35,846 nucleotides of DNA, taken from positions 1-35,846 of IMG/VR virus record IMGVR_UViG_3300032893_000190; one strand, 5' to 3'. Positions 5,999 through 35,846 of this stretch are shown here, one piece after another. The translations under genes and the position numbers were made by a program. Every line of letters begins with the position of its first letter. Within the stretch, counting starts at the first letter, position 1. The notes beneath the pieces were generated by a model. The model did no database searches, was not told the DNA's origin, and saw only the letters and a program-made list of their open reading frames with translations. The stretch is from a virus.

Positions 5999-6786
5999 TG
6001 CTACAGAGATTTAGAAGAATAGATAGAATGCTATATCGCGGTGGACATCCATCTGTAGAGGATGTTGTTTATTTAAATAAAAAGTTTGGCATAAAAAGAA
6101 TAATTAGTCTTGATATATTGGCTGGAAAACATATAGAAAGAGTTTGTAAAATATTAGAAATCGAGCATATTATCATACCAATAGATGTTAGCGATAAGAT
6201 GTCAATTATAAATTTGTTCGAGCATAATTTAGATTATTTGTTTGGCAGCGGCGTTCCTACTTATATTCATTGTATGCAGGGTAAAGATCGCACAGGACTT
6301 GTAGCCGCAGTATATAGATGCAAATATCAGGGGTGGGATTGTAATAGGGCCATAGCAGAGGCAAAAAAGTTAGGGTTTGGCATAGGAATAGATCCGACAA
6401 CAATAAAATTTTATGAGAAAATAATATCCAAATTTTGTATGAAAAACCACGATCACTTACATCAAATAGAAGATGCAAACAATGCATCGGATATAGTGTC
6501 TGGTGAAAGAGATTCAGAGGACCAATATAGAGATTTTAATCTTGATAGCTTAAATCCACAGTCATGGTCTCCATATACTGATTATCGAGTAAGAATGTAT
6601 CCTTATGGAGATGCGGATAGACATTATGATGAGCAGTTCGAAGGAAGAAACGATTATAAGTTAAAGGAAAAAAATCAGGTATCGATAAACGAAAATACTA
6701 TTCCTATGGTAGGTCAATACGATTCTAACACGCAGGGCATTTCTGGAGCCGGACCTTCGATGATTGGTTCGGGTATTATGCCATAA
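5998..6786 (+). CDS. Dual-specificity/tyrosine phosphatase-like protein
   Basis: 262 residues. The catalytic P-loop HCMQGKDRTG is intact, with nucleophile Cys92 and Arg98 in the C-x5-R spacing. Upstream, YRGGHPS and the IKRIISLD strand match the N-terminal half of SIW14-like or dual-specificity phosphatases. An Asp-bearing loop at residues ~62-67 (PIDVSDK) could supply the general acid. These enzymes remove phosphate from phosphotyrosine, phosphoserine or inositol phosphates through a cysteinyl-phosphate intermediate. Residues ~150-262 are an extra Tyr/Asp/Gly-rich tail ending in a Gly/Ser/Pro stretch. The gene is embedded in the structural operon. The fold call is strong; the substrate is unknown, and virion packaging is only a possibility. 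Confidence 0.8.
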   Translation: MLQRFRRIDRMLYRGGHPSVEDVVYLNKKFGIKRIISLDILAGKHIERVCKILEIEHIIIPIDVSDKMSIINLFEHNLDYLFGSGVPTYIHCMQGKDRTGLVAAVYRCKYQGWDCNRAIAEAKKLGFGIGIDPTTIKFYEKIISKFCMKNHDHLHQIEDANNASDIVSGERDSEDQYRDFNLDSLNPQSWSPYTDYRVRMYPYGDADRHYDEQFEGRNDYKLKEKNQVSINENTIPMVGQYDSNTQGISGAGPSMIGSGIMP

Positions 6787-19502: not shown

Positions 19503-19720
19503 ATGAATATGTTCAATGGTAAGGGCGAATTAAACGCCGGAAGTGTAAAAGAGGCACTTCAGTCGATTGCAAAAATCGCTGCAGTTCTCGAAGAAAACGT
19601 TCCATCAAACGTCGGTCTCGCAGGCCCCGTTTCGGATAGCCGTCGTGATGAGCTTATTTCGCAAGCTCTTATGACACAAGAAGGCAAAATTGCTTTAGCA
19701 CAAGCAATGGCCAACCCCAT
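19503..19720 (+). CDS. Major capsid protein, exon 1
   Basis: The first 72 codons plus two bases of codon 73 of the capsid gene, with AGGTGA (19494-19499) as ribosome site. Unspliced translation stops at TGA 19725-19727 and gives only 74 residues. Joined to 20907-21696, the gene has 336 codons (335 residues) with no frame problem, and the junction reads MANPIRKNLDYHG. Exon 1 encodes the helical N-terminal arm (around GSVKEALQSIAKIAAVLEE). Codons are C-ending and GC-richer than nearby genes, as expected for the most abundant virion protein. The exon ends in U, which pairs with G19735 in the intron guide, the hallmark of a group I 5' splice site. Confidence 0.85.
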
Positions 19721-20906
19721 TAACTGAATTACGAGTGGGGTATAAATTTAGCTATATGCTGGAAACTCTAAAAGCCTTATCACTTCGACACTCTACAAAT
19801 TAATCACCGCAGATAATTTAAATACAGTCGAATGTAACAGAATAAGGATGATATAGACAATCAGCAGGGAAGGCTGGCAAATGAAAGAAAGTGAAATTGC
19901 TAAACTATATGAATCTGGTTTAACTATAAGAGAAATTGCTGAAAAATCCAATGTAAGTTATGAGACCATTAGGCAAATCTTAAAAAAGCAAAAAGTTAAG
20001 TGGCACAGAAATTATGTGTCAGATTTAACTCCTAACCAAATTCAGGATATCATATACAGATACAATCAACATCAGACAATATTAGAAATCGCCAAATGGT
20101 ATGAAATATCACCTCCGGCTATTTCAAGGATATTAAAAGCCAATAATATAGAAGTTGAATGTAGTTTAAGAAAATATGATATCTTAAGACAAACACCTAT
20201 TAATAGTATCCAAAGACAGTTTTTAGTCGGAACCTTATTAGGAGATGGATGTTTATATAGGGACGGAAAGAATAGCAATTTTAAACTTTCAATAGCTCAA
20301 TGTGAAGCGCAGGAGCAATATTTTCACTGGAAGATAGCAATGATGGATCCCTTTATCAATGGTTATCGTAAATCAATTGATAAGAGGAAAAACTCAATAA
20401 TGCTGCAAACAACCACAATCTGTCATCAAGATTTTAATATGTTTGCTAAAATGTTCTACGATGAAAATAGAAAAAAAATTGTTCCTGATAATTTAGATAT
20501 GTATTTAACTCCCTTATCCCTAGCAGTATGGATAATGGATGACGGCAATCTAAATATGAATGTAAATATGAGAATCGCTTCAATGGGCTTTACAGAAGAA
20601 GAGAACTACAAACTACAGGCGTATTTGAAAAGATGTTTTGATTTAAGATCCAAGGTAATGGGTTTTAAATATAAGGATAAACAATATTTTCAATTAACGC
20701 TAAATAAAGAAAATACTCAAAAATTATCTAATATAATTCGAGAGCATGTTGTAGATTGTATGAAGTATAAGATAATGCCAGAACCCTCAACGACTTAATG
20801 CTAAACTTCGTAAATGATAACGAAGATGATAAAGTCTGACCTTTATTGAAAAGTAAAGAACCAAACAGAAATGATTTGGTTGGATAGATAGAATCCATAA
20901 CAAATG
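19721..20906 (+). ncRNA. Group I self-splicing intron in the capsid gene
   Basis: All core helices can be drawn. P1: 19714-19720 with 19735-19741 (ACCCCAU/GUGGGGU, U-G at the splice site). P10: 20907-20912 with 19729-19734 (UCGUAA/UUACGA). P3: 19747-19752 with 20800-20805. P4: 19758-19761 with 19862-19865 (GCUG/CAGC). P5: 19775-19780 with 19842-19847; P5a: 19784-19789 with 19827-19832. P6a: 19875-19879 with 20776-20780. P7: 20792-20796 with 20832-20836 (GACUU/AAGUC). P8: 20806-20811 with 20820-20825. P9 hairpins: 20841-20858, 20859-20881 and 20882-20896. The last base is G20906. The endonuclease gene fills the P6 loop. The subgroup is not assigned. Confidence 0.92.
19881..20798 (+). CDS. Intron-encoded LAGLIDADG homing endonuclease
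   Basis: 305 residues. Two helix-turn-helix units lie at residues ~5-40 (IREIAEKSNVSYETIRQIL) and ~50-90 (ILEIAKWYEISPPAISRIL). The nuclease half has both LAGLIDADG-type motifs: FLVGTLLGDG (residues 114-123, Asp122) and LAVWIMDDG (residues ~214-222, Asp220/221), as in the LAGLIDADG_2 class of single-chain enzymes. It would cut intron-less capsid genes at the junction sequence and so spread the intron. The ribosome site GGGAAGG lies inside the Q/P6 region, and the last codons and stop overlap the 5' side of P7, so translation and ribozyme folding compete. It could also act as a maturase; this is unproven. Confidence 0.88.
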   Translation: MKESEIAKLYESGLTIREIAEKSNVSYETIRQILKKQKVKWHRNYVSDLTPNQIQDIIYRYNQHQTILEIAKWYEISPPAISRILKANNIEVECSLRKYDILRQTPINSIQRQFLVGTLLGDGCLYRDGKNSNFKLSIAQCEAQEQYFHWKIAMMDPFINGYRKSIDKRKNSIMLQTTTICHQDFNMFAKMFYDENRKKIVPDNLDMYLTPLSLAVWIMDDGNLNMNVNMRIASMGFTEEENYKLQAYLKRCFDLRSKVMGFKYKDKQYFQLTLNKENTQKLSNIIREHVVDCMKYKIMPEPSTT

Positions 20907-21696
20907 TCGTAAAAACTTAGACTATCACGGAATTGCTCGTAGAGCAGTTTGCGTAGATCCAATACCCCAGGGTGCACTTGCGGTCTACGATCGTGATATC
21001 GATGTTGCCGCTGTCGTTGTTTCAAGCAACGGTACCGGCCCAGAATCACGCGTTTTCGGTGATCGCGTAACTGTTCCAGAGTTTGAGCTCTTCTCAAACC
21101 CCACAGTTCGTATCGCAGAAGTTAAGCGTCGTCGTTTCAACGTTATCGACCGTGCAGTTCAGAAAGCCCGTCAAGAAATTATGGCTCAGGAAGACGCAAA
21201 CGTTTTCGCAGCCATTGACGCAGCTTCAACAGTCGAAAACGTTCGTCAGGATATCGCCGATGCAGGTATGCTCAAGCGCGATCTCGCTGCTATCAAAAAG
21301 CAAGTCGATCGTTGGGACCTCGTAACAACCAAGTTTTTCATGAACATCAACGAGTTCAATGACATTCTCCTCTGGGCAACCGGCGGTGGTCAGGGCGTTG
21401 GTGGTGGTGAAATCGACCCAGTAACCCAGCGCGAAATTCTCCAGACTGGTCTTTATGCCCACATCTGGGGTGCAGACATTCTTGTCAGCAAAATCGTTCC
21501 GCCTGGTACTGTTTATGGTTGTGCAGACCCAGAGTTCGTAGGCGTAATGCCCGTCAGACAAGACATTGAAGTTTTGCCAGCAGACGAACCAAAACAGTTA
21601 AAATTAGGTTGGGTTGTCAACGAGATTATCGGTATCGGTATTCTCAACCCACGTGGCGTTGCTTCAGGCAACAAGTCAGTACTAATTGGTACATGA
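20907..21696 (+). CDS. Major capsid protein, exon 2
   Basis: The remaining 263 codons of the capsid gene. The first base completes codon 73 (AT+T, Ile), followed by RKNLDYHGIARRAVCVDP. The frame is open back through 20907 and past it into the intron, so the true exon start is set by the ribozyme (ωG at 20906 and P10 pairing), not by an ATG; the ATG at 21181 is internal. The sequence continues with VFGDRVTVPEFEL, the KRRRFNVIDRAVQKARQEI helix and an EDANVFAAIDAAS segment, a pattern I associate with HK97-fold capsids of large phages. The C-terminus ends NKSVLIGT. Codon use is strongly biased to C-ending codons. A strong terminator follows. Confidence 0.85.
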
Positions 21697-21896: not shown

Positions 21897-23996
21897 ATGA
21901 AAAAAATTACAGAAGAAGTGAGACGGCAAATTATTAAAATGTATCAAGATGGATTATCTCCTTCTGAAATTGGTGTCAAGTTTGATTTACATAGCGGTAG
22001 TGTTGGAAGAATAGTTAAAAAATCTGGAATTGTTAAAAATCAAAGAACCGTTATTAATGAAGATTTATTTAATTTTATGAAAGAAAAATATGAATCTGGA
22101 ATGTCTTCGGAAAAAATAGCGGAAATTATCGGAATAGATAGCTCCTCTATATGCAGAAAACTTAAAAAAAATGGAGTTGTAATAAGAACGGCCTCAGAAA
22201 ATAATAGGAAATATCATATAGATGAAACTTTTTTTGAAAAAATTAATAATGAAGAAAAAGCTTATTTTTTGGGACTAATATATTCTAATGGATATTTAAA
22301 CGCCAAAGATAAGTCAATAAGAGTTTTGTTAAGAAATTCTGATAAAAATATTTTAGAAAAATTATCATCTTTAATTTTTAAAGAAAATAGAGTTAAAGAG
22401 ACTAAAAATAAGGGTCGGTATGTATATTCTTATATTAGAATTTATTCTTCAAAAATATATGATTGTTTAATAAATATGGGAAAAGCAGAAAAAAAGAAAT
22501 TAATTTTAAATTTTCCCAATTTCATTAGAGAGGATTTAAAACGACATTTCATTAGAGGTTGTTATGATGGAGATGGGTTCTTTTTATTGATGGGTGGAGG
22601 CTCGCATCTTGGAATAACATCAAACACTAATATAATTAACGGTATTGCTAAATATTTTTCTGATACTTTAAATATAAATTCAGAAATTAAAATAAAAAAT
22701 GAAAAGAAAAATTTATCCAGTCTTAAAATTAAAGATTTAAATCAAATAGATATTGTTGTCCATCATTTATATGATAATAGTAATTTTTATATTAATAGGA
22801 TATATAAGAAGTATTTACGATTTTTAGAATTAAAAAATAACTTTGATAAAAATAAATTAAAACGACAAAACAAGATAGAAAAAGTAAAAGATAAGTATAC
22901 TAATATTAAAAATTATGGCACCACCTATATTGTACCATATCAAAATATGTTATTAACATCAGACAATCTTATAAATATGACTGAAGAACAAAAAAATGAT
23001 GCGGCTAAAATCGTTTTTGATTTTTATAGAAATAACGGTTTTCCCTATTCTAATTTATCAAAAGATGAGTTGCTGAAAGACTTTATATATCTAAAAAACA
23101 TAGATATTAAAAAAATTAATAAAGATAATATTTTAAATTTAAATAATTATAGTGGGATTAGTATATTTAAACATTTTGCTCCTCATTTCTATGAGGCAAA
23201 ATCATCATTAACTAACAATTCATTAACTCAAAAACCATCAATGATCGAAGGATTTCATAGAGATGATATTTTGTTGAGAGTAATTAATGAAAGATTGAGC
23301 AAAAATAAAAATATGAATGGCAATATGATCAAACAGGGATTATTTAATTCTTATCGTGTATATAGGGCAAGCATCTTCTTCCCCTCTATTGCTAAATTTT
23401 TATACTCCAAATATACTCAAGAAGGAGATATAATTTATGATTATTCTATGGGCTTTGGTCAGAGATTATTAGGAGCATTATCACTACCTCATAATATTAA
23501 ATATGTTGGAGTAGATCCTTTTAGAAAATCATTTGAAAGTAATGTTAATATTTTTCAATTTTTTAAAGATAATATTCCTATGTTTAAGCAAGATGTTGAT
23601 TTGCGATGTTGTGGTGCCGAAGAATTTATAGATGAGCAATATAAGGATAAAATTAAATTTGCTTTTTCTAGTCCACCATATTATAATTTAGAGAGATATG
23701 TGGAAGAAGAAAGTCAGTGTTATTATAGTCGTAGTTATGTGGATTTTATTAATGAATGGTGGCGTAAGGTAGTTGATAATATTGATTATATGTTAGCTCC
23801 TGACGGTATCTTTGCCATTAATATTAAAGATAAGGTAGATAATTTTTCCATTAAAGATGATATGGTTAATGTCATTAGAGAGAAGGGTTATGAGATAATC
23901 GACATGTATCAAATTCAGCTAACTCGCAATACCTCCTTTAATAATAAGGATGGCAGTCATAAATACGAACCAATTATATTATTAAAGAGAAAATAG
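21897..23996 (+). CDS. Homing endonuclease-DNA methyltransferase fusion
   Basis: 699 residues with a strong site (AGGAGGGGG) before the ATG. Residues ~1-95: two helix-turn-helix units like those of the intron endonuclease. Residues ~115-330: a LAGLIDADG-type nuclease with AYFLGLIYSNGYL (motif 1, acidic residue replaced by Asn) and FIRGCYDGDGFF (motif 2, Asp present). Residues ~340-699: a SAM-dependent DNA methyltransferase with DYSMGFGQRLLG and VGVDPF (motif I region), and SPPY at 592-595 (motif IV), the form common in N4-cytosine and some N6-adenine enzymes. A 15-nt tail-to-tail overlap with the minus-strand gene follows. It may be a mobile endonuclease that captured a methylase. Loss of one acidic residue may leave the nuclease weak or a nickase. 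Confidence 0.8.
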   Translation: MKKITEEVRRQIIKMYQDGLSPSEIGVKFDLHSGSVGRIVKKSGIVKNQRTVINEDLFNFMKEKYESGMSSEKIAEIIGIDSSSICRKLKKNGVVIRTASENNRKYHIDETFFEKINNEEKAYFLGLIYSNGYLNAKDKSIRVLLRNSDKNILEKLSSLIFKENRVKETKNKGRYVYSYIRIYSSKIYDCLINMGKAEKKKLILNFPNFIREDLKRHFIRGCYDGDGFFLLMGGGSHLGITSNTNIINGIAKYFSDTLNINSEIKIKNEKKNLSSLKIKDLNQIDIVVHHLYDNSNFYINRIYKKYLRFLELKNNFDKNKLKRQNKIEKVKDKYTNIKNYGTTYIVPYQNMLLTSDNLINMTEEQKNDAAKIVFDFYRNNGFPYSNLSKDELLKDFIYLKNIDIKKINKDNILNLNNYSGISIFKHFAPHFYEAKSSLTNNSLTQKPSMIEGFHRDDILLRVINERLSKNKNMNGNMIKQGLFNSYRVYRASIFFPSIAKFLYSKYTQEGDIIYDYSMGFGQRLLGALSLPHNIKYVGVDPFRKSFESNVNIFQFFKDNIPMFKQDVDLRCCGAEEFIDEQYKDKIKFAFSSPPYYNLERYVEEESQCYYSRSYVDFINEWWRKVVDNIDYMLAPDGIFAINIKDKVDNFSIKDDMVNVIREKGYEIIDMYQIQLTRNTSFNNKDGSHKYEPIILLKRK

Positions 23997-26996
23997 TTTT
24001 AATTTTCTGTTTAATGTTCTTAATTTTATAGATGCTATTTTTTCTTTATTAAGTTCTTGTATTCTTTCTTTAATTATTTTTTTTGTACGATCATCTGCTG
24101 CCGGATGGTTTAATATTTTTTCAAATAGTTCTGGCGGTAGGTTTGTATTTTGCGTTAAAGTATATAAAGTAGAGCTATTTGCTTCTGGATGGTTTAATAT
24201 TTTCTCGAACATTTCTGGCGGTAAATTACGATTAATTGTTAAACCGTATAAAATGTTCGAATCTGTACTTGGATAATTTAATATTTTTTCAAATAGTTCT
24301 GGCGGTAGATTTGGGTCTTTTGAAATATAATATAGAGCTATATTATTTATTTTTGGATGATTTAATATTTTCTCAAACATCTCTGGAGGCAATTTTTCAT
24401 TGACAACTAAACTTTCCAAGACATTATTATCTACTTCTGGATGATTGAATATCTTTTCAAATAGTTCTGGCGGTAGATATGGGTCTTTTGAAATATAATA
24501 TAGAGCCACATTATTTATTTTTGGATGATTTAATATTTTCTCAAACATTTCTGAAGGCAATTTTTCATTGACAGCTAAATTTTCCAAGACATTACTATTT
24601 ACTTTCGGATGATTTAATATCTTTTCAAACATTTCTGGCGGTAAATTTTCATTACAAGCCAAACGTTCTAAAACAGCACTATCTGTTTTTGGATGATTTA
24701 ATATTTTCTCAAACATTTCTGGAGGTAAATTTTCATTATAAACCAAACGTTCTAAAACAGCACTATCTGTTTTTGGATGATTGAATATTTTTTTCATTAT
24801 TTTTGGATTATTTGTAAATGTAGCTATAGTATTTAAATAATTTCCTTTTTCTATTTCTTCCAATTTTTCTTCTTCTGTAGCTTCATTATTTTTAATTTTG
24901 GCGCCTATAGTTTTGGAAATACTTTCAGCATCTTGAGTGATTAGAGTTAGGATTTTCTCCCAATTAGTCAGATCTTTAGTATATCTTGGCGCTTCTGATC
25001 GAGTGTCCATTGCATCAAAATACTCTATTTTCTTTATTTTGTTTTTTTCATCTCTATGAACTATAAGGGCGACCTTATAATTGCTGTTTTCTTTATCTAA
25101 ATCCTTTCTTAAAACGAAATAAAAAATAAAATTCTCGCTTTGGTAATCTTCAAAGTAGTAATGATTTTCCATAGTAATGCACCACTTTGTTCCCGATCCA
25201 TAAAAACAAGAAGCTGCCTTATCTTTTACATAGATGACAACACATTGGTCATCCTCATAAATTTTTCTTCCACCCTCTGTTTTAATTTCTAACTTTTCCC
25301 GGCGCTTTGATTTTCCTTTTTCAGCGTCTATGTCAAATAAGATGTCCATCAACTCTGTAAAGTTCTTATATGAATTAATGTCCTTATTATCAAGTTTATG
25401 TTGGTATTTATGAAAGAGCTCAACGACATCTGCTATTTCATTTTCAAGAGCTTTTCCTGATACTAATACCTTAACAGCATAAGAGAGATATTTATGATTG
25501 CCGGATGGATCCCTACGAGCTAACATGTCTATTTTGTCGGCGTACTCCGGATATTTGTTTTTAAGATCCGAAATTCTGCTGGCTAATTTTAGAATAGATA
25601 TCTTATAAAATTTGTTTAGTAATCCTCTTAATTTTATAGATGCTGTTTTTTCTTTATTAAGCTCTTGTATTCTTTCTTTAATTATTTTTTTTGTACGATC
25701 ATTTGCCGCCGGATGGTTTAATATTTTTTCAAATAGTTCTGGCGGCAGATTTTTGTGTACCGCCATAGCATCTAAAGCAAACCAATTTACTTTCGGATGA
25801 TTTAATATCCTCTCAAACATTTCTGAAGATAGGTTTTTATTGTTGGCTAGAATTTCTAAAGTTATATAATCTGTTTTTGGATGATTTAAGATCTTTTCAA
25901 ACATCTCTGGTGGTAGATTTGGTTTTTTTGCTAAAGAAAATAAAACATAATCATTTGTTTTCGGATGATTTAATATCTTTTCAAACATCTCTGGTGGTAG
26001 ATTTGGATTTTTTGCTAAATTAAGTAAAACACTATAATCTGTTTTTGGATGATTTAAGATCTTTTCAAACATTTCTGGAGGCAAATTTTCATTGCGAGCT
26101 AAACTCACTAATATTATCCTATCTATTTTTGGATGATTGAATATTTTTTTCATTATTTTTGGATTACTTGTAAATAAAGCTATATGGTTTAGATAATTTC
26201 CTTTTTCTATTTCAGCTAATAGTTCTTCTTCTGTAGCTTCATTATTTTTAATTTTAGCACCGACAGGTTTAGGAATGTTTTCAGCATCTTGAGTGATTAG
26301 AGTTAGGATTTTCTCCCAATTAGTCAGATCTTTAGTATATCTTGGTGTTTCCGATTGAGCGTCCATTGCATCAAAGTATTCTATTTTTTTTATTTTATTT
26401 TTATCATCTCTATAAACTACAACGGCAACTTTATAATTGCTGTTTTCTTTATCTAAATCCTTTCTTAAAATAAAATAAAAAATAATATTCTCGCTTTGAT
26501 AATCTTCAAAGTAGTCATGATTTTCCATAGTAATGCACCACTTTGTACCACTACCGTAGAAACAAGAGGCTGCCTTATCTTTTACATAGATGACCACACA
26601 CTGATTGTCCTCATAAATTTTTCTTCCTCCCTCTGTTTTAATTTCTAATTTTTCCTGGCGTTTGGACTTATTTTTATCTCTATCAATTTCGAATAAGGTG
26701 TCCCTCAGTTCTGTAAAGTTCTTATATGAATTAATGTCCTTATTATCAAGTTTATGTTGGTATTTATGAAAAAGATCAACGACATCTGCTATTTCATTTT
26801 CAAGAGCCTTCCCCGACACTAATGTTTTAACCGCATAAGGCAGATATTTATGATTGCCGGAAGGATCCCTACGAGCCAACATATCTATTTTGTCGGCGTA
26901 CTCCGGATATTTGTTTTTAAGATCCGAAATTCTGCTGGCTAATTTTAGAATAGATACCCTATAAAATATGTTAGATAGGGAAATGGCATGCTTCAT
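23982..26996 (-). CDS. Double-module GTKWC/helical-repeat protein
   Basis: 1004 residues made of two complete copies of one architecture (residues 1-462 and ~463-1004). Each copy has an ILKLASR start helix, KYPEYADKIDMLARRDPSG, a mixed alpha/beta domain with GSGTKWCIT (GTKWC at 150-154 and again near 602-606) and a YFDAMD strand. A solenoid of 28-residue repeats follows: six in the first copy, nine in the second. Each repeat is a nearly fixed helix, NLPPEMFEKILNHP, plus a variable helix such as TDYSVLLNLAKNP, like leucine-rich-variant (LRV) repeats. Each copy ends with KKIIKERIQEL and ASIKLR. D-P-S...GT(K/R)WC proteins occur as unknowns in many phages. No catalytic residue can be named. Function is unknown; a binding scaffold is likely. 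Confidence 0.85.
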   Translation of the reverse strand: MKHAISLSNIFYRVSILKLASRISDLKNKYPEYADKIDMLARRDPSGNHKYLPYAVKTLVSGKALENEIADVVDLFHKYQHKLDNKDINSYKNFTELRDTLFEIDRDKNKSKRQEKLEIKTEGGRKIYEDNQCVVIYVKDKAASCFYGSGTKWCITMENHDYFEDYQSENIIFYFILRKDLDKENSNYKVAVVVYRDDKNKIKKIEYFDAMDAQSETPRYTKDLTNWEKILTLITQDAENIPKPVGAKIKNNEATEEELLAEIEKGNYLNHIALFTSNPKIMKKIFNHPKIDRIILVSLARNENLPPEMFEKILNHPKTDYSVLLNLAKNPNLPPEMFEKILNHPKTNDYVLFSLAKKPNLPPEMFEKILNHPKTDYITLEILANNKNLSSEMFERILNHPKVNWFALDAMAVHKNLPPELFEKILNHPAANDRTKKIIKERIQELNKEKTASIKLRGLLNKFYKISILKLASRISDLKNKYPEYADKIDMLARRDPSGNHKYLSYAVKVLVSGKALENEIADVVELFHKYQHKLDNKDINSYKNFTELMDILFDIDAEKGKSKRREKLEIKTEGGRKIYEDDQCVVIYVKDKAASCFYGSGTKWCITMENHYYFEDYQSENFIFYFVLRKDLDKENSNYKVALIVHRDEKNKIKKIEYFDAMDTRSEAPRYTKDLTNWEKILTLITQDAESISKTIGAKIKNNEATEEEKLEEIEKGNYLNTIATFTNNPKIMKKIFNHPKTDSAVLERLVYNENLPPEMFEKILNHPKTDSAVLERLACNENLPPEMFEKILNHPKVNSNVLENLAVNEKLPSEMFEKILNHPKINNVALYYISKDPYLPPELFEKIFNHPEVDNNVLESLVVNEKLPPEMFEKILNHPKINNIALYYISKDPNLPPELFEKILNYPSTDSNILYGLTINRNLPPEMFEKILNHPEANSSTLYTLTQNTNLPPELFEKILNHPAADDRTKKIIKERIQELNKEKIASIKLRTLNRKLKLFSL
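23990..24815 (-). repeat. 28-residue (84-nt) helical repeat array, 9 units
   Basis: Coding tandem repeats of the second module. Units share the constant helix (L/M)FEKI(L/F)N(H/Y)P and differ in the second half. Two neighbouring units (TDSAVLERLVYNE and TDSAVLERLACNE) are nearly the same in DNA, and INN(V/I)ALYYISKDP occurs twice with one unit between, suggesting duplication of a two-unit block. Confidence 0.85.
25640..26150 (-). repeat. 28-residue (84-nt) helical repeat array, 6 units
   Basis: Coding repeats of the first module of the same gene. Units with TDYSVLLNLAKNP and TNDYVLFSLAKKP are close to units of the 29458 gene, so arrays of different paralogues exchange or share recent ancestry. 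Confidence 0.85.
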
Positions 26997-27022
26997 AATA
27001 TTATGCCCTAAAATTAGATATT
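26957..27022 (-). repeat. 66-nt duplicated start region, copy 1
   Basis: Identical base for base to 30906-30971. It covers the first codons of the repeat gene, its leader, and the last bases of the upstream gene. Here the upstream frame stops at TAA (27014-27016). Confidence 0.95.
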
Positions 27023-27976
27023 ATTCATATTTTTGACGAAATCATCTTCCCATATATTTATTAATTTAAAACCAGCGGATTTTAAATTAGCTTCTTTTTC
27101 TAATGTTTTTCTATAAAGCTCTCCAAAGGTAATTTTCTTTACCTTATTAATGTCTTTTGGATTATATTTATTTGGATTTCCGTGCCAAAAATCTCCATTA
27201 AATTCATATATTGTATTAGTTAGCGGGTCAAATCCATCGGCCCTATATGTCTTGCCATTTGCTTCTATTCTAACCGAACGAGTTTGCGGTGTATCTGGAA
27301 TTCCTAAACTATTTAACCACATTTTTTCCAAATGAGAAATTCCAGAAGGAGAGCAGGATTGACAGTTGGTAATTCCTTTTTCAAATCTTTTTACCGCATC
27401 ACTAATTCTCATAATAAATTCCACCTTACAGGATGGACAGGACCAAATTCCTTTTTTATGAGAGTTTGGAAAAACTTCATATGATTTCTTTTTATTCTTT
27501 TTTGACCAAGAAGCAGACAGTTTTTTATATTTATATTGTAATGATGTTTCTTTTGATATTTTTCTTTTTCCGCAATATGGGCAGCCACAATTTTTTGCCG
27601 TCTTGTTTGCTATGGGCTGATGATATGATTTTTTGCACTTATTACATATCCACCAAAATTTTTTCTTACTTCTTGGGGCGATTTTATCAGGAGTTTGTTT
27701 GTTCTTTTTAAAATCCCATTGTTTTGCTATTTTGGGATATTTTGTCTTAAGGCTATTCTTCTTGTTTATTTTTTTATTGCAACAGTATGGACATTTTTGA
27801 TGATAAATTGCTTTATTGCTTATTCTTTGTTCATAGATTTCATTACATTTGCTACATTTCCACCATGCCTTTTGCCCAGATCCGCGTGTAATTTGGTTTG
27901 GTGTTATTTTATTTTTATCATAGCACCATTCTTTTAGTAGGTGAGGATGAGTTATATTTAATGTCTTTTTTACCAT
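27014..27976 (-). CDS. Zinc-ribbon Vsr-like (EDxHD-type) endonuclease
   Basis: 320 residues from ATG 27976; the in-frame TTG one codon before lacks support. Residues ~1-210 hold four zinc-ribbon-like units, each with paired C-x2-C knuckles (CSKC/CPYC, CNKC/CPYC, CPSC/CQSC) and W-(W/S)-x-C lead-ins, as in the probable zinc-ribbon repeats found in phage nucleases. Residues ~215-320 carry SHLEKMW, YRADGFD, YEFNGDFWHGNP and KSAGFKLINIWEDDF, the E...D...(F/Y)WHG layout of Vsr/PD-(D/E)XK-fold homing endonucleases such as I-Bth0305I. It probably makes a strand break at a site in a related phage. It is free-standing: no intron is evident around it. It is followed 17 nt later by the double-module gene. 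Confidence 0.75.
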   Translation of the reverse strand: MVKKTLNITHPHLLKEWCYDKNKITPNQITRGSGQKAWWKCSKCNEIYEQRISNKAIYHQKCPYCCNKKINKKNSLKTKYPKIAKQWDFKKNKQTPDKIAPRSKKKFWWICNKCKKSYHQPIANKTAKNCGCPYCGKRKISKETSLQYKYKKLSASWSKKNKKKSYEVFPNSHKKGIWSCPSCKVEFIMRISDAVKRFEKGITNCQSCSPSGISHLEKMWLNSLGIPDTPQTRSVRIEANGKTYRADGFDPLTNTIYEFNGDFWHGNPNKYNPKDINKVKKITFGELYRKTLEKEANLKSAGFKLINIWEDDFVKNMNNI

Positions 27977-28045
27977 CAATGTCTTATATATCCGCTTACT
28001 TCCTGCATCAAGATTAAATAATCCTGTAAAAATCTCTCGTTATTT

Positions 28046-29452
28046 ATGTATTTTTGTATGCGCCAGAAGTTTGCCGGATTGCTGAAAGTGCCAGAACAAA
28101 CATTAAAGGAAGTTCAGGATTGGGCTGCCAGCGCTTATTGTAAGGTTGTTTATTCTTCATTAGATAAAATGCAATATCATTTCAATAATAGAAATGATGT
28201 AAAAAACACAATAAACAAGATTTTAGAAAGCAATAATTATAAAAGTTTAATGAAAATTGTAAGTTCAGGATCTCAAAATATAAATGATATTTTACCAGAG
28301 GTCGGAACTGCATTTGATTTGAATATTAGTTATTTTGCAGAAGAAGAAAACGATCCAAAAACAGGACGGGCTGGAGTTTATGATTGGGTAAGAAAACCAC
28401 CAACGCTACAAATATTTATTTATGGTCATGCCGATCAGAAGTATAATTTTAGACTTTATATTAATTATCAGGGTTATCAGGTTTCTACGGACCTTTTAAA
28501 AAATATAGATAGATATGAAGTTAAAGAATACATAAAAAATAACAGAGAGGGAATATTTGAGGTCTTAACAAATTTTAAGTATTTTGTTAATAATTTTGAG
28601 GCCTTTGATGATTACGATTTTAAGGAAATAAAGAAAATAAAAATCGAATTAATGAGGCATATAAAACCAGAATACAATATCGAGCAAATTATTAAGGTTC
28701 CGGCTCAATATATTATAGGTAATAGCAATGTAAATAGTATTGATTTTAAGGCAGTATTTATTTATGATAGAGATACGGCCAAGAGTATATATAAAGAAGA
28801 AAAATGGAGGGGGCTATGGGATGCAAGAAATAGTTGGGATGAAAGAAATAATACTGATATTTTAGGCGGTAATTTATATGTTTTTAAAGATCTGACAGAT
28901 TGGGATAAAGAAGGAGCAATGCCGTCAGTCCATCAAATACAAAGAGATCTTGAGGGAGTTAAGCAAACCGCTCGACATGAACTTCAACATGTAATCCAGA
29001 CATTTGCAATGGAATATAAACAAACAGAACTGGAGTTTGGATTACCTCCTGTTAAAATAAGAGAAAAAGAACACGATATACACGGCCTTAAATTACAAGA
29101 TCAAAAATCCAATGATAGGTTAGAGCATAGATTGAGGGATATAGAGTTTTATACTAATTTAACCGATGCTGTAGATGAATTTAGAAGACTATTAAATAAT
29201 CTTCCGTCGAAATTACATAAGGATGCTTTAAAGGCATATATTCATTTGATTGATATAAATGATTTAGACAAGAATTTAAACAATAATGAATATTTTAAAA
29301 ATAAAAATAGTTGGAATATGAAAAAAATATTGCTGGATAGAATTTATAAGGCCGCAAATAATAATTTTTTTGATACATTGAAAGATGCTCGTCCGGCTAA
29401 ATATCGAAAGGCCGTTATTGAGTTTATAAAGGCATTTCCTAATTTAGTTTAG
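28046..29452 (+). CDS. HExxH putative zinc metalloprotease-like protein
   Basis: 468 residues, the only plus-strand gene amid minus-strand neighbours. HELQH at residues 311-315, inside TARHELQHVIQTF, is an intact zinc-protease helix. A possible third ligand is the Glu of RLEHRLRDIEFYTN about 45 residues later. The N-terminal ~290 residues are alpha/beta without known motifs and begin with a helix FAGLLKVPEQTLKEVQDW. There is no signal peptide, so it would act in the cytoplasm or from the virion. An alternative start is ATG 28058; neither has a clear ribosome site. The end lies 5 nt from the end of the convergent gene. The protease activity is a motif-level prediction; the substrate is unknown. 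Confidence 0.65.
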   Translation: MYFCMRQKFAGLLKVPEQTLKEVQDWAASAYCKVVYSSLDKMQYHFNNRNDVKNTINKILESNNYKSLMKIVSSGSQNINDILPEVGTAFDLNISYFAEEENDPKTGRAGVYDWVRKPPTLQIFIYGHADQKYNFRLYINYQGYQVSTDLLKNIDRYEVKEYIKNNREGIFEVLTNFKYFVNNFEAFDDYDFKEIKKIKIELMRHIKPEYNIEQIIKVPAQYIIGNSNVNSIDFKAVFIYDRDTAKSIYKEEKWRGLWDARNSWDERNNTDILGGNLYVFKDLTDWDKEGAMPSVHQIQRDLEGVKQTARHELQHVIQTFAMEYKQTELEFGLPPVKIREKEHDIHGLKLQDQKSNDRLEHRLRDIEFYTNLTDAVDEFRRLLNNLPSKLHKDALKAYIHLIDINDLDKNLNNNEYFKNKNSWNMKKILLDRIYKAANNNFFDTLKDARPAKYRKAVIEFIKAFPNLV

Positions 29453-29457
29453 AATTA

Positions 29458-30945
29458 TTATTTATTAATAGAAAACTTTCTTCTTAGTACTCTTAATGAA
29501 TTTATAGATGCCTCTTTGGTTTTGTTGATTTTTTGTAATTCGATTAATTTTTTTGTGTGATCATTTGCCGCCGGATGGTTTAATATTTTTTCAAATAGTT
29601 CTGGCGGCAGATTTTTATGTGCCGATATAGCATCTAAAGCAAACCAATTTACTTTTGGATGATTTAATATCTTTTCAAACATCTCTGGTGGTAGATTTGG
29701 TTTTTTTGCTAAAGAAGATAAAACATAATCATTTGTTTTCGGATGATTTAATATCTTTTCAAACATCTCTGGTGGTAGATTTGGTTTTTTTGCTAAAGAA
29801 GATAAAACATAATCATTTGTTTTCGGATGATTTAATATCTTTTCAAACATCTCTGGTGGTAGATTTGGTTTTTTTGCTAAATAAGATAAAACACTATAAT
29901 CATTTGTTTTCGGATGATTTAATATCTTTTCAAACATCTCTGGTGGTAGATTTGGTTTTTTTGCTAAATAAGATAAAACATAATCATTTGTTTTCGGATG
30001 ATTTAAGATCTTTTCAAACATTTCTGGAGGTAAATTACGATTAGTTCCTAAACCGTATAAAATGCTCCAATTTGTTCTTGGATGATTTAATATTTTCTCC
30101 ATTATTTTTGGATTATTTGTAAATGTAGCTATAGTATTTAAATAGTTTCCTTTTTCTATTTCTGCCAATAGCTCTTCTTCTGTAGCTTCATTATTTTTAA
30201 TTTTGGCGCCTATAGTTTTGGGAATACTTTCGGCATCTTTAGTTATTAGGTTTAGAGTTGTTTCCCAATTAGTCAGATCTTTAGTATATCTTGGTGTTTC
30301 TGATCGAGTGTCCATTGCATCAAAGTATTCTATTTTATTTATTTTGTTTTTTTCATCCCTATAAACTACAACGGCAACCTTATAGTTATTGTATTCTTGA
30401 CTTAAATCTTTTCTTAAAATAAAATAAAAAATAATGTTTTCATCTTGATAATGTTTAAAGTAGTCATGATTTTCCATAGTGATACACCACTTTGTACCAC
30501 TGCCATAAAAACAAGAAGCCGCCTTATCTTTTACATAGATGACAACACACTGATCGTCCTCATATATCTTTCTTCCACCTTCTGTCTTGATCTCTAATTT
30601 TTCCTGGCGCCTTGATTTTCCCTTTTCAGCGTCTATGTCAAATAAAATATCTCTTAGCTCTGTAAAGTTCTTATATGAATTAATGTCCTTATTATCAAGT
30701 TTATGTTGGTATTTATGAAAAAGCTCAACGACATCTGCTATTTCGTTTTCAAGAGCCTTCCCCGACACTAATGTTTTAACAGCATAAGAGAGATATTTAT
30801 GATTGCCGGAAGGATCCCTACGAGCCAATATATCTATTTTGTCAGCGTACTCCGGATATTTGTTTTTAAGATCCGAAATTCTGCTGGCTAATTTTAGAAT
30901 AGATGCCCTATAAAATATGTTAGATAGGGAAATGGCATGCTTCAT
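29458..30945 (-). CDS. Single-module GTKWC/helical-repeat protein
   Basis: 495 residues, very close to the first module of the 23982 gene through the GTKWC domain (residues ~1-275), then seven 28-residue repeats. Four inner repeats (TNDYVLSYLAKKP, TNDYSVLSYLAKKP, TNDYVLSSLAKKP twice) are almost copies of each other, and one has an extra residue. The end has KKLIEL and EASINSLR in place of ASIKLR. The ATG is 4 nt after the stop of the 30950 gene, so the two form an operon. The variable helix positions are the part that would set binding specificity, by analogy to other solenoids. Function is unknown. Confidence 0.85.
   Translation of the reverse strand: MKHAISLSNIFYRASILKLASRISDLKNKYPEYADKIDILARRDPSGNHKYLSYAVKTLVSGKALENEIADVVELFHKYQHKLDNKDINSYKNFTELRDILFDIDAEKGKSRRQEKLEIKTEGGRKIYEDDQCVVIYVKDKAASCFYGSGTKWCITMENHDYFKHYQDENIIFYFILRKDLSQEYNNYKVAVVVYRDEKNKINKIEYFDAMDTRSETPRYTKDLTNWETTLNLITKDAESIPKTIGAKIKNNEATEEELLAEIEKGNYLNTIATFTNNPKIMEKILNHPRTNWSILYGLGTNRNLPPEMFEKILNHPKTNDYVLSYLAKKPNLPPEMFEKILNHPKTNDYSVLSYLAKKPNLPPEMFEKILNHPKTNDYVLSSLAKKPNLPPEMFEKILNHPKTNDYVLSSLAKKPNLPPEMFEKILNHPKVNWFALDAISAHKNLPPELFEKILNHPAANDHTKKLIELQKINKTKEASINSLRVLRRKFSINK
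29658..30080 (-). repeat. Near-identical 84-nt tandem repeats
   Basis: Units begin at 29658, 29742, 29826, 29913 and 29997 (GATGATTT on the plus strand). The spacing is 84, 84, 87 and 84 nt; the 87-nt unit holds one extra codon. The first two units are identical, and the others differ at a few bases. All are coding, so this is active repeat expansion rather than a noncoding array. Confidence 0.95.
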
Positions 30946-30971
30946 AATATTATGCCCTAAAATTAGATATT
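30906..30971 (-). repeat. 66-nt duplicated start region, copy 2
   Basis: Identical to 26957-27022. Here the same bases are read in a different frame by the upstream gene, which ends ISNFRA instead of stopping at the first TAA. This marks the edge of the gene duplication. Confidence 0.95.
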
Positions 30972-33292
30972 GTTAATTTAGTTATTGCAATCTTTCTATT
31001 TCTAATTTTAATTGATGAATTTTTTGTAGAAGATGTTTCCTTTTCTCGTATTGCTTGATTTATCCAGTAATCTGTCGGATATTTTATGTGCAATTTTTTT
31101 AATATTTCTAGTGAAGTTGATGAATTTTCTCCTAACGCAGTAGCTACAGTAAGATCAATAATTTTATCATTAATGACATCTGATGTTATTTGATTTAAAA
31201 TGGTTAATGGTGTTCTAGGATTTTTTGCTAAATAATACAATATATTATTATCTTTAATATCAATTTTATTATATATTTTTTCTAGTATTTGCGGCGATAC
31301 ATTTTGGTTTTTAGATAAAAAATATAAATTTTCTTTATCTTTAAAAAGTTTTTCAGCAATTTCATCTGTGATATTATTATGAGAGGCTATAAGTGAATCT
31401 AAATTTTTATATTTATTTACTAATTTATTAAGTATTTCTGATGGAATATATTTATTATGCACTAATAATTGACGAATAGTCGGCATAGAGTTTAAATTTA
31501 TTAAATAATCATAATTTTCTTTTGTTAAGGGGAAATTTGTGCTTACAATGCGTTCTCTAAACACATCTTCTTTTAGTAAATCAGATATTATGTCTTGTGG
31601 AACTGGAAGATATTTTAAATTCCTAGAGATATATTCTTTGATTCTCAATGAACCTTCACTATTATATATTTTTCTAATTATTCTTTCTGATATATTATTG
31701 TGATTAGCCCTTAATATATAATAGCCGACTCCTTGAGCATCAGCGATATTCCACAATGCCTCTTCTGGTGTATTTTTATTTTCGGCCAAGTTATAAAATA
31801 TATAATTAAGAGAATTAGTATTTTCTTCTCTTAACTTTGATATTTCTAATAAAATATTTGGAGGGGTTGATGAATTTCTCGCTAGCAATTTTGTTATTTG
31901 TGGATTATTATGATGATTAAAAATATCTAATAAAATATCTGGAGGGGCATCATCTCTTCTTGCCAATAAATCAATTATTTTACTGTTTTTATTTTCATTA
32001 TATATAGAAGATAATGTTTCTGGATCGCTTGCATTATTTCTCGACAATGCCTCTAATACATGTTTATCATTGGTATTTAATAATTTTTTAATTACTTCTT
32101 TATCGGACGCATATATAGCAATTATAGGTAGTATTTTTTTAAATTGAAATAATTTATCTATATTTATTCCTGAATCTAAAAAGATATAAACCATATGTTG
32201 GATAATGTATTTTTCTTCAATTTTGTTATCTAATATATATTGCAATAGTTCTTTAGATTTATCATGAGCTATAACAGTATGAAATAATTTATTTTTATCT
32301 GGAAATTTTTCATACAATTTTTCAAAATTACTAATTGTTAGATTTTCATTGCCCATAATAGCATATAAAATATCATCATAATATGCAGAATTTTCTATAA
32401 TATAATTTAGTGCCGCTGAATTTTTACTTAATCCTGCAATTCGACCTTGCACACCATCTGATAGTTTATTCCAGTTATCAATGATTTCTTTTTCTGAAGC
32501 CTCATCTTTTACTAATCTGCTTAAAAATGTTTTCTCTACTTTTGCCGCATCAAGATCAATAATTGCTAATATTGATGATAATTTTGTTAAATCATTAAGA
32601 TATTCGGGAGTGCTACTTTGAACATCTAACGCGTCGAAATATTCTTTTCTGATAATTTTATTTTTATCATTTCTATAAACCACAACGGCGACCTTATAAT
32701 TGCTATCTTCTTTATCTAAATCCTTTCTTAAAACGAAATAAAAAATAATATTCTCGCTTTGGTAATCTTCAAAGTAGTCATAATTGTTCATAGTGATACA
32801 CCACTTTGTACCACTACCGTAGAAACAAGAGGCCGCCTTATCTTTTACATAGATAACTACACATTGGTCATCTTCATATATCTTTCTTCCACCTTCTGTC
32901 TTGATCTCTAACTTTTCCTGGCGTTTGGACTTATTTTTATCTCTATCAATTTCAAATAATAAATCTCGTAATTCTGTAAAATTATGATATTGGTAAATGT
33001 CTTTTTGGGTTAATTTGTGCTGATACTTGTTAAAAAGCTTAATTACATCGATTATTTCATTTTCTAATGCCTGACCAGAAACTAAAATTTTAACCATATA
33101 TGGAAGATATTTATTTCTGCCAGAGGGATCTTTTTTTGATAATTCTTCTATTTTGGTTTTAAATGACGGGTGTTTTTGAATTAAATTTTCTTTAATTCCA
33201 GCAAGACACAATAAATAATTATATAGGACTTTTTTTAACACATAATAATACAAAAATATTAATTTAAGACCATTAATATAAACTTTACTCAC
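30950..33292 (-). CDS. Divergent GTKWC protein with LRV-like solenoid
   Basis: 780 residues, the most diverged family member. The GTKWC domain (residues ~40-260, with KKDPSGRNKYLPY and GSGTKWCITM) is well kept. The ~480-residue C-terminal part is an LRV-like helical solenoid with units such as LARRDDAPPDILLDIF and LARNSSTPPNILLEI, but without the uniform repeat seen in its neighbours. It ends with an NSSIKIR variant of the family tail. The listed start is GTG 33292, which overlaps an AAGG motif; GTG 33241 would match the length of the paralogues better, so the first ~17 residues are uncertain. It heads the operon with 29458. Confidence 0.8.
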   Translation of the reverse strand: MSKVYINGLKLIFLYYYVLKKVLYNYLLCLAGIKENLIQKHPSFKTKIEELSKKDPSGRNKYLPYMVKILVSGQALENEIIDVIKLFNKYQHKLTQKDIYQYHNFTELRDLLFEIDRDKNKSKRQEKLEIKTEGGRKIYEDDQCVVIYVKDKAASCFYGSGTKWCITMNNYDYFEDYQSENIIFYFVLRKDLDKEDSNYKVAVVVYRNDKNKIIRKEYFDALDVQSSTPEYLNDLTKLSSILAIIDLDAAKVEKTFLSRLVKDEASEKEIIDNWNKLSDGVQGRIAGLSKNSAALNYIIENSAYYDDILYAIMGNENLTISNFEKLYEKFPDKNKLFHTVIAHDKSKELLQYILDNKIEEKYIIQHMVYIFLDSGINIDKLFQFKKILPIIAIYASDKEVIKKLLNTNDKHVLEALSRNNASDPETLSSIYNENKNSKIIDLLARRDDAPPDILLDIFNHHNNPQITKLLARNSSTPPNILLEISKLREENTNSLNYIFYNLAENKNTPEEALWNIADAQGVGYYILRANHNNISERIIRKIYNSEGSLRIKEYISRNLKYLPVPQDIISDLLKEDVFRERIVSTNFPLTKENYDYLINLNSMPTIRQLLVHNKYIPSEILNKLVNKYKNLDSLIASHNNITDEIAEKLFKDKENLYFLSKNQNVSPQILEKIYNKIDIKDNNILYYLAKNPRTPLTILNQITSDVINDKIIDLTVATALGENSSTSLEILKKLHIKYPTDYWINQAIREKETSSTKNSSIKIRNRKIAITKLTISNFRA

Positions 33293-33354: not shown

Positions 33355-34140
33355 TTGTTCGATTTTCTAGATGCTTTTCAAATTTTAGCAGAAATACATA
33401 AGGAAGATGACAACTCTTTGCCCGTAAGAGTAAATGCTGTTCTTAAGATGCATCCCATTAAAAAGGTGGCATTTGATTCTCGTCGTGTGGATCAAGATGC
33501 CTATTTTAATCCAAGGAGAAATCTGCAATATTATCATCGCAGCGAACCATTTGTATCTAAAGAGGCATCTGAACAAATTAGAACATTTTTCAAATTAAAA
33601 ACAGCGGCCGATTCAATTAGAGATCAATATGTCGGTCATCCTGCATGGTTAGACAGCTATTCAAGAGTATTATGTGCCTCTCTTGACAGAACATTAAGAT
33701 TAGAACAAAAAGACGGGGACTATGGAAAGCCGCAACTTGATTATCTTCAGGAGCTATTAGATGTTAGATATCGTTTAAAGCCAGAAGATATTGAAAAAAT
33801 GAGCCACGAAGAATTAAGGCAAGCAATCATAAAGAAAGACGAGAATTTAATGCAAGACCAAAATTTTCAATCACATTACATATCAAAAACCAATACATTA
33901 CAGCCGCCCATGCAAAATGTAGCAGCTCCATTTAATATTAATTTGCCAAAACAAGAGCAGCAAGACTCCTTAATGGAAAAATTATTTGGAAATGTTAAGG
34001 CAACCAAAGATAATAAATTTGTTAAAAGAAACATTTCAATTACAATAGAAGACCAAATTCTTGATGAAGTAAAGGGTGAAAAACAAGATAATGAAAATAA
34101 AGAGGAAAATAAAGAAGTAGAAAAGAAAAAGGAGGAATAA
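33355..34140 (+). CDS. Structural-type protein with TTG start, 261 aa
   Basis: The start is TTG: AAGAGG lies at 33344-33349 with a 5-nt gap, and no in-frame ATG is near the conserved-looking beginning (FDFLDAFQILAEIHKE). Residues ~1-165 are a compact helical domain with PIKKVAFDSRR and YVGHPAWLDSYSRV; the remainder is disordered and ends in a Glu/Lys tail. It is the first gene after the accessory block and sits 3 nt before the next gene. It may be a neck or tail-associated protein; I do not recognise a family. Confidence 0.7.
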   Translation: MFDFLDAFQILAEIHKEDDNSLPVRVNAVLKMHPIKKVAFDSRRVDQDAYFNPRRNLQYYHRSEPFVSKEASEQIRTFFKLKTAADSIRDQYVGHPAWLDSYSRVLCASLDRTLRLEQKDGDYGKPQLDYLQELLDVRYRLKPEDIEKMSHEELRQAIIKKDENLMQDQNFQSHYISKTNTLQPPMQNVAAPFNINLPKQEQQDSLMEKLFGNVKATKDNKFVKRNISITIEDQILDEVKGEKQDNENKEENKEVEKKKEE

Positions 34141-34768: not shown

Positions 34769-35846
34769 ATGTCAAAGGTTAATAGTTCACAAATAAAAGG
34801 AGTACAAACAGGAGCGGGAGGCGGAAGCATAGGCTCTGGCATTTCCGTATCTAATAATGGAGTTACTCTTGGACTATTTAACGGTTTAAATGTTCATGGA
34901 TCTGCTACTGTTTCTGCAACTGGAACTATAGCCGATATTTATATTGTTGGTGGCGGTCTTCAGGGGTCTCCTGGTGTTACTGGCCCACAAGGACCAACTG
35001 GACCTGCTGGTGGACCACAAGGAATTCAGGGTTCTCCGGGAGTTACTGGCCCTACAGGTCCTCAGGGGCCTCAAGGATTACAGGGTTCGCCGGGAGTTAC
35101 AGGCCCTACAGGCCCACAAGGATTTCAAGGTCCACAAGGTTCACCTGGTGTTGCTGGTCCCACGGGTCCTCAGGGATCCCAAGGATCGCAGGGCTCTCCC
35201 GGCGTTACGGGTCCTACAGGACCTCAAGGAAATCAGGGATCACAGGGTTCACCTGGAGTTACAGGTCCTACAGGTCCCCAAGGCCCTCAGGGATCGCAAG
35301 GTTCACCTGGTGTTACCGGCCCTACAGGCCCTCAAGGATCACAGGGATTGCAGGGTTCGCCGGGAGTTACAGGTCCAACAGGTCCTCAAGGAAATCAAGG
35401 TTTACAGGGTTCACCTGGAGTTACGGGGCCTACAGGTCCTCAAGGACCTCAGGGACTTCAGGGTTCACCTGGAGTTACCGGTCCAGCAGGCACTAATGGT
35501 GCTGGAATGTCTGGTATTTTTGTATTAAATGCCGGCGCCACACTTGGGTTATTTGGCTCTATAAATGTACATGGTCCAGGCGTTACCGCATCTGCCACAG
35601 GAATAGTTGCAGATGTTTATATAACCGGAGGCGGTTCTCAAGGTTCACCCGGTGTTACAGGCCCTACAGGGCCTCAGGGACCCCAAGGATCTCAGGGTTC
35701 ACCAGGAGTTACTGGACCCACAGGACCTCAGGGAAATCAAGGTCCACAGGGATCTCCCGGAGTTACTGGTCCTACAGGTCCCCAAGGTCCTCAAGGATCT
35801 CAGGGTTCTCCTGGAGTTACTGGTCCTACAGGTCCCCAAGGTCCCC
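34769..35846 (+). CDS. Collagen-like fibre protein, 5' part (runs off the window)
   Basis: The frame is open from ATG 34769 to the last base (359 codons seen). Residues 1-65 are a beta-rich head ([13 protein letters not shown]). From codon 66 (34964) it becomes strict Gly-X-Y repeats in an 18-residue, 54-nt unit of the form [18 protein letters not shown], about ten units to ~35500. A second copy of the head module ([18 protein letters not shown], 35515-35640) interrupts, then the Gly-X-Y units resume to the end. Such proteins form trimeric triple-helix shafts in phage tail or head fibres. No clear ribosome site precedes the ATG. Gly-X-Y codons vary at third positions, so the repeats are not all recent. 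Confidence 0.85.
34964..35846 (+). repeat. 54-nt Gly-X-Y tandem repeats
   Basis: Two blocks of six-triplet units, at about 34964-35500 and from 35642 to the window end, separated by a non-collagen module. Length variation by unit gain or loss is expected, and assembly across this region may collapse. Confidence 0.85.

Follow-up and report, generated by a model that had tools for sequence, protein, structure and literature searches.

GTKWC-domain repeat proteins of a giant-phage locus as candidate capsid-packaged cargo with modular binding arrays

What would a giant phage do with several copies of a large repeat protein encoded beside its structural genes? The question is raised by IMG/VR record IMGVR_UViG_3300032893_000190 (the complete record, 35,846 bases; here called the window), a fragment of a giant phage in which three minus-strand genes, G1, G2 and G3, adjoin a plus-strand structural cluster. 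Their products combine a conserved domain, the GTKWC domain, with a helical, mostly repetitive C-terminal region. On balance, we favour the explanation that GTKWC proteins are internal head proteins, directed into the capsid and processed by a protease, which carry modular binding arrays and are probably ejected. Packaging in the capsid is likely, and ejection followed by binding of host targets comes close to an even chance without quite reaching it. Here, we describe the genes and their leaders, then the arrays, weigh the other explanations, and finally turn to neighbouring genes, known systems and significance.

The GTKWC genes and their N-terminal leaders

An earlier note on this DNA had recognized four copies of one architecture in three genes, and the minus-strand open reading frames (ORFs) bear this out: GSGTKWCIT is present in 4/4 domain copies, the domain spanning ~240 residues. 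The N-domains of the window paralogues are under purifying selection, with a ratio of non-synonymous to synonymous differences per site (pN/pS) of 0.15-0.38, and we therefore regard G1, G2 and G3 as genuine coding genes. Their features are as follows, a slash marking the presumed cut.

23982..26996, minus strand: G1, 1004-residue protein with two complete GTKWC-plus-array copies in one frame
26937..26996, minus strand: G1 copy A N-terminal leader, residues 1-20 (MKHAISLSNIFYRVSILKLA/SR), putative capsid-targeting or processing peptide, from alignment with relatives and the clade motif
26223..26936, minus strand: G1 copy A GTKWC domain, residues 21-258 (profile match)
25668..26171, minus strand: G1 copy A array, 6 units of 28 residues
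25581..25661, minus strand: G1 inter-copy linker repeating the leader (KTASIKLRGLLNKFYKISILKLA/S), where a predicted cut would give two proteins (from sequence)
24867..25580, minus strand: G1 copy B GTKWC domain, residues 473-710 (profile match)
24060..24815, minus strand: G1 copy B array, 9 units
29458..30945, minus strand: G2, 495-residue GTKWC-plus-array protein, with a predicted structure (pLDDT 89.5)
30886..30945, minus strand: G2 N-terminal leader, residues 1-20, ending ILKLA/SR
30172..30885, minus strand: G2 GTKWC domain, residues 21-258 (profile match)
29530..30120, minus strand: G2 array, 7 units, several nearly identical in DNA
30950..33292, minus strand: G3, 780-residue GTKWC protein with an irregular helical C-terminal region and the leader LLCLA/GI
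32486..33199, minus strand: G3 GTKWC domain, residues 32-269 (profile match)
31043..32485, minus strand: G3 irregular repeat region, with weak LRV and DUF2336 matches
19503..19583, plus strand: start of the major capsid protein, with the clade motif at its N-terminus (QSIAKIA/AVLEEN)

In annotated phage records, distant relatives are found in Wroclawvirus phages and Salicola phage SCTP-2, and a profile scan of IMG/VR gave 219 confirmed GTKWC stretches. Where whole records were searched, each had 1 to 9 domain matches (seven in SCTP-2), a few of which are parts of a single gene split in pieces. A full-length protein scan of viral sequences found nothing, and none of 295 other genomes from the phylum of a Chitinophagales metagenome-assembled genome contains the domain. 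The sole match among genome contigs is JAIXLO010000160.1, a 383-kb contig deposited and binned with the Chitinophagales genome, which is itself a giant phage related to the window: it is collinear with the first 24 kb, with identities of 58% for the portal, 43% for the protease-containing protein and 72% for the capsid exon. Gly148, Trp153, Cys154 and Tyr166 are invariant across 63 members of the family. PHROG 17056 and PHROG 28193, which match 62/63 and 60/63 of these, are the GTKWC domain itself; neither carries a functional annotation, so both name the family without explaining what it does. No description of the family emerged from a literature search, and no known, uniform function of the domain was found in Pfam, PHROG, the PDB or the literature.

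The case for packaging starts at the N-terminus. Most relatives begin with a leader, a short hydrophobic stretch that ends in LLxE/SR or IxE/GR. The motif [LI]xE[SGA], by its sequence that of the T4 prohead protease, lies within residues 5-28 of 49/64 non-redundant GTKWC proteins compared with 39/388 of the remaining ORFs at these loci, and occurs in only 2/64 in each later stretch of the GTKWC proteins. Requiring R or K next leaves 47/64 against 4/388. An S77 prohead protease (T4 gp21-type) is encoded in 10 of 16 GTKWC-bearing records, in one of which (record G015) its gene directly follows a GTKWC gene, and the T4-type major capsid proteins of six GTKWC phages have one to three copies of [LIFV]xE[GSA] close to the N-terminus. 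In several phages, GTKWC genes lie near those for terminase, portal or prohead protease. The PA5oct relative, EST35_0205, adjoins a large-terminase-like gene (the terminase is named in Paride) and is annotated as a structural protein by electrospray ionization tandem mass spectrometry, in data of others. Across the PA5oct proteome, the leader motif weakly supports packaging, a looser form giving p 0.004 for the mass-spectrometry proteins; most tail proteins lack the leader motif.

The window copies do not end their leaders in L/I-x-E. Instead, these read LKLA/SR in G1A, G1B and G2, YKLA/SI in the 383-kb contig and LCLA/GI in G3, with KLA/S in four of the five copies. The capsid proteins of this clade mostly carry K[YFIL]A[SAQ] at ~residue 24. 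Among 562 reduced sister-phage ORFs, K-hydrophobic-A was found 138 times against 34.5 expected, chiefly near the N-terminus, while L-x-E showed no enrichment in the same set. Because the shared ancestry of orthologues inflates this pooled figure, a table by family (loci L175-L261) is the better evidence: the capsid protein often has the motif, as do several unrelated structural families, and it is seldom seen in homing endonucleases, nucleotidyltransferases and certain further structural families. In residues 6-45, only 5/20 families reach 50%, and two score in residues 46-85 as well. Over whole proteins of the window and sister contig, K-x-A gave z 1.6-2.0, equal in the control, the signal being confined to the N-terminal tests. 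K-hydrophobic-A near N-termini is thus possibly the head-maturation motif of the window's giant-phage clade, as judged from sequence patterns; a PHROG head-maturation protease match lies in the window. That the GTKWC leaders follow the motif of the carrying phage's own capsid protein, and do so in two lineages, is the strongest argument for packaging.

The linker between the two copies of G1 repeats the leader (KTASIKLRGLLNKFYKISILKLASR). If the leader motif is a cut site, G1 would be a polyprotein, cut at the linker into two mature products. In the regular copies, the C-terminus carries KxASI or EASI, which may by analogy recall T4 Alt, a protein processed at both ends (PMC9026906).

In the model we propose, the hydrophobic leader would target the GTKWC protein into the prohead, where the phage's prohead protease would cut it at whichever motif its clade uses, L/I-x-E in T4-like relatives and K-hydrophobic-A in the window. 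The mature protein, GTKWC domain plus array, would remain in the capsid and probably be ejected with the DNA. The array would then act as a modular binding surface for variable host proteins, for example defence or take-over targets, and the GTKWC domain would supply a function common to the family.

Variable arrays and exchanged C-terminal modules

The unit counts given in the earlier note, 6 (G1A), 9 (G1B) and 7 (G2), hold, and G3 lacks a regular unit. Units are spaced by 28 residues throughout the regular arrays, bar one 29-residue step in G2, and periodicity measured against shuffles gives z of ~30-38 for the three regular arrays and 3.4 for G3. Tandem Repeats Finder detects the arrays in DNA; the 84-bp units of G2 are nearly identical (96% matches, score 692), which shows that units have been gained recently and supports the gain at DNA level that had been put forward. 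DNA identity between G3 and G1A is a mosaic, ~88-93% in the GTKWC core and ~47-72% in the flanks, indicating gene conversion.

Across 15 interior units, pN/pS is 0.08 (bootstrap 0.03-0.14) in the first, constant-helix half and 1.16 (bootstrap 0.95-1.61) in the second, variable half. The suggested division into a constant and a variable helix is therefore real, and the two do not change at equal rates. The same contrast fits the diversifying selection that had been suggested, although positive selection is not proven, since the interval for the variable half includes 1, and relaxed change fits too. The most variable positions of the unit are 18, 19, 22, 23 and 26, a spacing that places them on one exposed face of the second helix; Leu21 is invariant.

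An AlphaFold2 model of G2 (mean predicted local distance difference test, pLDDT, 89.5) consists of a helical bundle, a five-stranded alpha/beta core and a confident solenoid with two helices per unit. The idea of a modular binder, with a constant scaffold and a variable face, is supported; recognition of rival-phage proteins in particular found no support, whereas defence or counter-defence proteins may be the targets of the arrays. Against viral models, the top match of the G2 model is the PA5oct relative (E 5.5e-9); the others are phage proteins, some named leucine-rich repeat variant in BFVD (E 6e-6 to 4e-3). Searched against the PDB, the solenoid retrieved only generic designed armadillo repeats with poor TM-scores, and the N-domain alone had no clear fold match, which does not by itself establish a new fold; a PDB sequence search gave no relatives. 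Comparison of the alpha/beta core with GNAT-like folds reached a best Z of 5.7, the GNAT rows having Z 4-5, the usual range for unrelated models.

Several known families were tried and set aside. For membership of the leucine-rich repeat variant (LRV) family PF01816, the scores of 20.1, 17.4 and 15.4 bits fall below the curated cut-off of 21.6. On the 1004-residue protein, TFIIA_gamma_N and DUF4274 gave high scores that we judge to be chance scores summed over the repeats because no single stretch is significant, and FokI_dom_2 matched weakly, just at its cut-off. As to known anti-phage defence proteins, PADLOC gave one match only, to a CARF model (E 0.083).

Beyond the window, the domain is followed by C-terminal parts that form ~20 clusters without BLASTP-detectable similarity to one another. 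Their repeat classes comprise the LRV-like 28-residue unit of the window, a 26-residue unit (L029, L036, L045), a 23-residue unit that we take to be MORN-like (L014, L016, L017), a 22-residue DUF4116 unit in SCTP-2 (Pfam E 3e-17) and, by eye, a leucine-rich-repeat-like region in L088; non-repeat types occur as well. Being unrelated and often repetitive, these C-termini mark the constant domain as a common carrier for differing modules. The earlier note, which had the architecture right, covered neither this exchange nor the leader and the PA5oct virion annotation.

Weighing the explanations

Several points weigh against packaged and processed cargo. Cleavage, ejection and a ligand have not been observed for the family, and a cargo of 57-115 kDa is a large one to send through a portal. 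The strict leader motif is found in 7/87 mass-spectrometry proteins of PA5oct against 9/268 others (p 0.08). The E-x-R conserved at the end of the leader could belong to the structure of the first helix, drawn as continuous across this site by AlphaFold2. In the window's own clade, the G3 leader has LCLA where the others have KLA, and the genome holding the sister contig gave no S77 protease match. The GTKWC block is also accessory, inserted where gene content varies: in sister phages with both flanks, the stretch from the capsid gene to the counterpart of 33355-34140 consists of only ~0.1 to 4 kb of other genes and contains no GTKWC gene. The equivalent position in the 383-kb contig is occupied by genes for a SET-domain protein and two further proteins, all three beginning with a comparable leader; its GTKWC gene is ~95 kb distant.

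This accessory character is among the features expected of cytoplasmic binders made after infection, acting in counter-defence or host take-over and never packaged, with the leader as a mere first helix. Duplicated genes on the strand opposite the structural block, missing at the same site in sister phages, and a variable binding face would suit such proteins well. We nevertheless consider this unlikely in view of the mass-spectrometry annotation of the PA5oct relative in the virion, the match of the leader to the phage's own capsid-protein motif in two lineages, and, in several phages, a location of the genes close to that for terminase, portal or prohead protease.

We give much the same low standing to structural or scaffolding head proteins without a host role, whose arrays would bind head proteins or DNA and vary by drift. 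Such proteins would account for the PA5oct virion annotation and for the capsid motif, and a pN/pS near 1 is compatible with relaxed constraint. An assembly role, however, fits poorly with 1 to 9 copies per record, with unrelated C-terminal modules and with the lack of a GTKWC gene near the capsid gene of sister phages, and simple drift would not be expected to keep one leucine invariant next to five exposed, hypervariable positions.

It is improbable that the GTKWC domain is a divergent PcfJ-like domain derived from mobile elements. PcfJ (PF14284) is the commonest weak Pfam match (hmmscan; 8/63 members, best E 7e-4), but a score of 16.6 of 25 bits stays below the curated cut-off, and profile-profile comparison with hhalign gave a probability of 0.04, with a thin PcfJ alignment of 3 sequences. 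Least probable are exterior adhesins or fibre parts whose arrays would determine host range by attaching to the cell surface, for which the downstream collagen-like fibre gene and a resemblance of the arrays to host-range diversity would speak, since the leader resembles that of capsid-interior cargo, most PA5oct tail proteins lack it and no fibre family or fold was matched.

Neighbouring genes, known systems and significance

Internal head cargo may not be restricted to the GTKWC proteins. The following gene sits between G1 and G2.

28046..29452, plus strand: HELQH zinc-metallopeptidase-like protein with the leader MYFCMRQKFA/GL, a likely co-cargo

HExxH proteins of this kind, with matching leaders, are encoded close to GTKWC genes in SCTP-2 (gp47) and in six IMG/VR contigs, where the leaders are of the V/I-x-E type, and are found at 0/87 sister loci without GTKWC; a sequence search of IMG/VR gave no relatives of the metallopeptidase. 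The SET-domain protein at the syntenic site of the 383-kb contig (L150:16305-16655; PF00856, E 6e-10; leader MEIFKIASKIN) is a further candidate for injected cargo. Between G1 and the metallopeptidase gene, 27014-27979 (minus strand) encodes a protein with a DUF4379 treble-clef zinc finger (E 4e-38) and endonuclease matches in PHROG.

Among the plus-strand genes, the major capsid gene (19503-21696) is split by an intron-like insert with a LAGLIDADG endonuclease (19881-20798), and the capsid gene of the sister contig has inserts too. The adjacent 21897-23996 encodes one protein with N-terminal helix-turn-helix and LAGLIDADG endonuclease parts and a DNA-methyltransferase-like C-terminus, conserved in the 383-kb contig. 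Within the structural cluster, 5998-6786 encodes a tyrosine/dual-specificity phosphatase (PF03162, E 2.5e-10; 37% identity in the sister contig), and 7651-11115 a protein of 1154 residues with a head-maturation protease region (residues 108-216) and a long low-complexity, scaffold-like part. The collagen-like (GPQGxxG) fibre gene, 34769-35846, runs off the record and is also present in sister phages.

How do the GTKWC proteins compare with known cargo? Internal proteins (IPs) of T4 have targeting propeptides of 10-19 residues that are cut after L/I-x-E, and many are ejected (PMC9026906). Like T4 IPI, IPII, IPIII and Alt, GTKWC proteins are accessory and vary between phages, have a short leader with L/I-x-E in T4-like relatives, occur in genomes with a gp21-type protease and include one relative with a virion annotation. 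Unlike these, they form tandem repeat arrays and up to 9 paralogues, and no sequence match between the two was found; they are also much larger than the IPs. In the window clade, the motif is K-hydrophobic-A rather than L/I-x-E, and because the leaders end in LKLA/SR or LCLA/GI, we do not file the window proteins as T4-type IPs but only as proteins that would work like them. The ejection (E) proteins of SPN3US and phiKZ are likewise giant-phage head cargo with a prohead protease and a short motif, and processing in SPN3US prefers Ser at P1'; their motifs are different, however (AXE; S/A-X-E), they belong to another family, and the excerpts of the sources used here describe no arrays (PMC10052503, PMC9026906). 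DarA and Hdf of P1, head-associated and linked to protection from host defence, serve as a model for the proposed role (PMC12810830); they are different proteins, and an anti-defence role of GTKWC proteins is proposed by analogy with them. LRV repeats (PF01816) have helical units of similar sequence, whereas the window unit has 28 residues, is joined to the GTKWC domain and scores below the Pfam cut-off. New here are the breadth of the GTKWC family, its swapped and diversifying modules and the K-hydrophobic-A motif.

Taken further, and tentatively, GTKWC proteins could form a polymorphic, virion-delivered binder system, in which a constant capsid-targeted domain carries interchangeable, fast-diversifying modules, several per virion, as a repertoire that would neutralize varying host defences at DNA entry. 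The window clade would in addition use a previously undescribed head-maturation motif, K-hydrophobic-A, in place of the glutamate motif of T4, phiKZ and SPN3US.

Cargo injected with phage DNA decides the first moments of infection and is hardly known outside a few model phages. A sequence rule now connects capsid packaging with an unannotated family found in hundreds of contigs of large phages, and the same leader rule flags other candidate cargo, such as the metallopeptidases and the SET-domain protein. If the explanation favoured here is true, many hypothetical proteins would become testable injected effectors, and the arrays would supply natural repeat scaffolds with a binding face varied by evolution.

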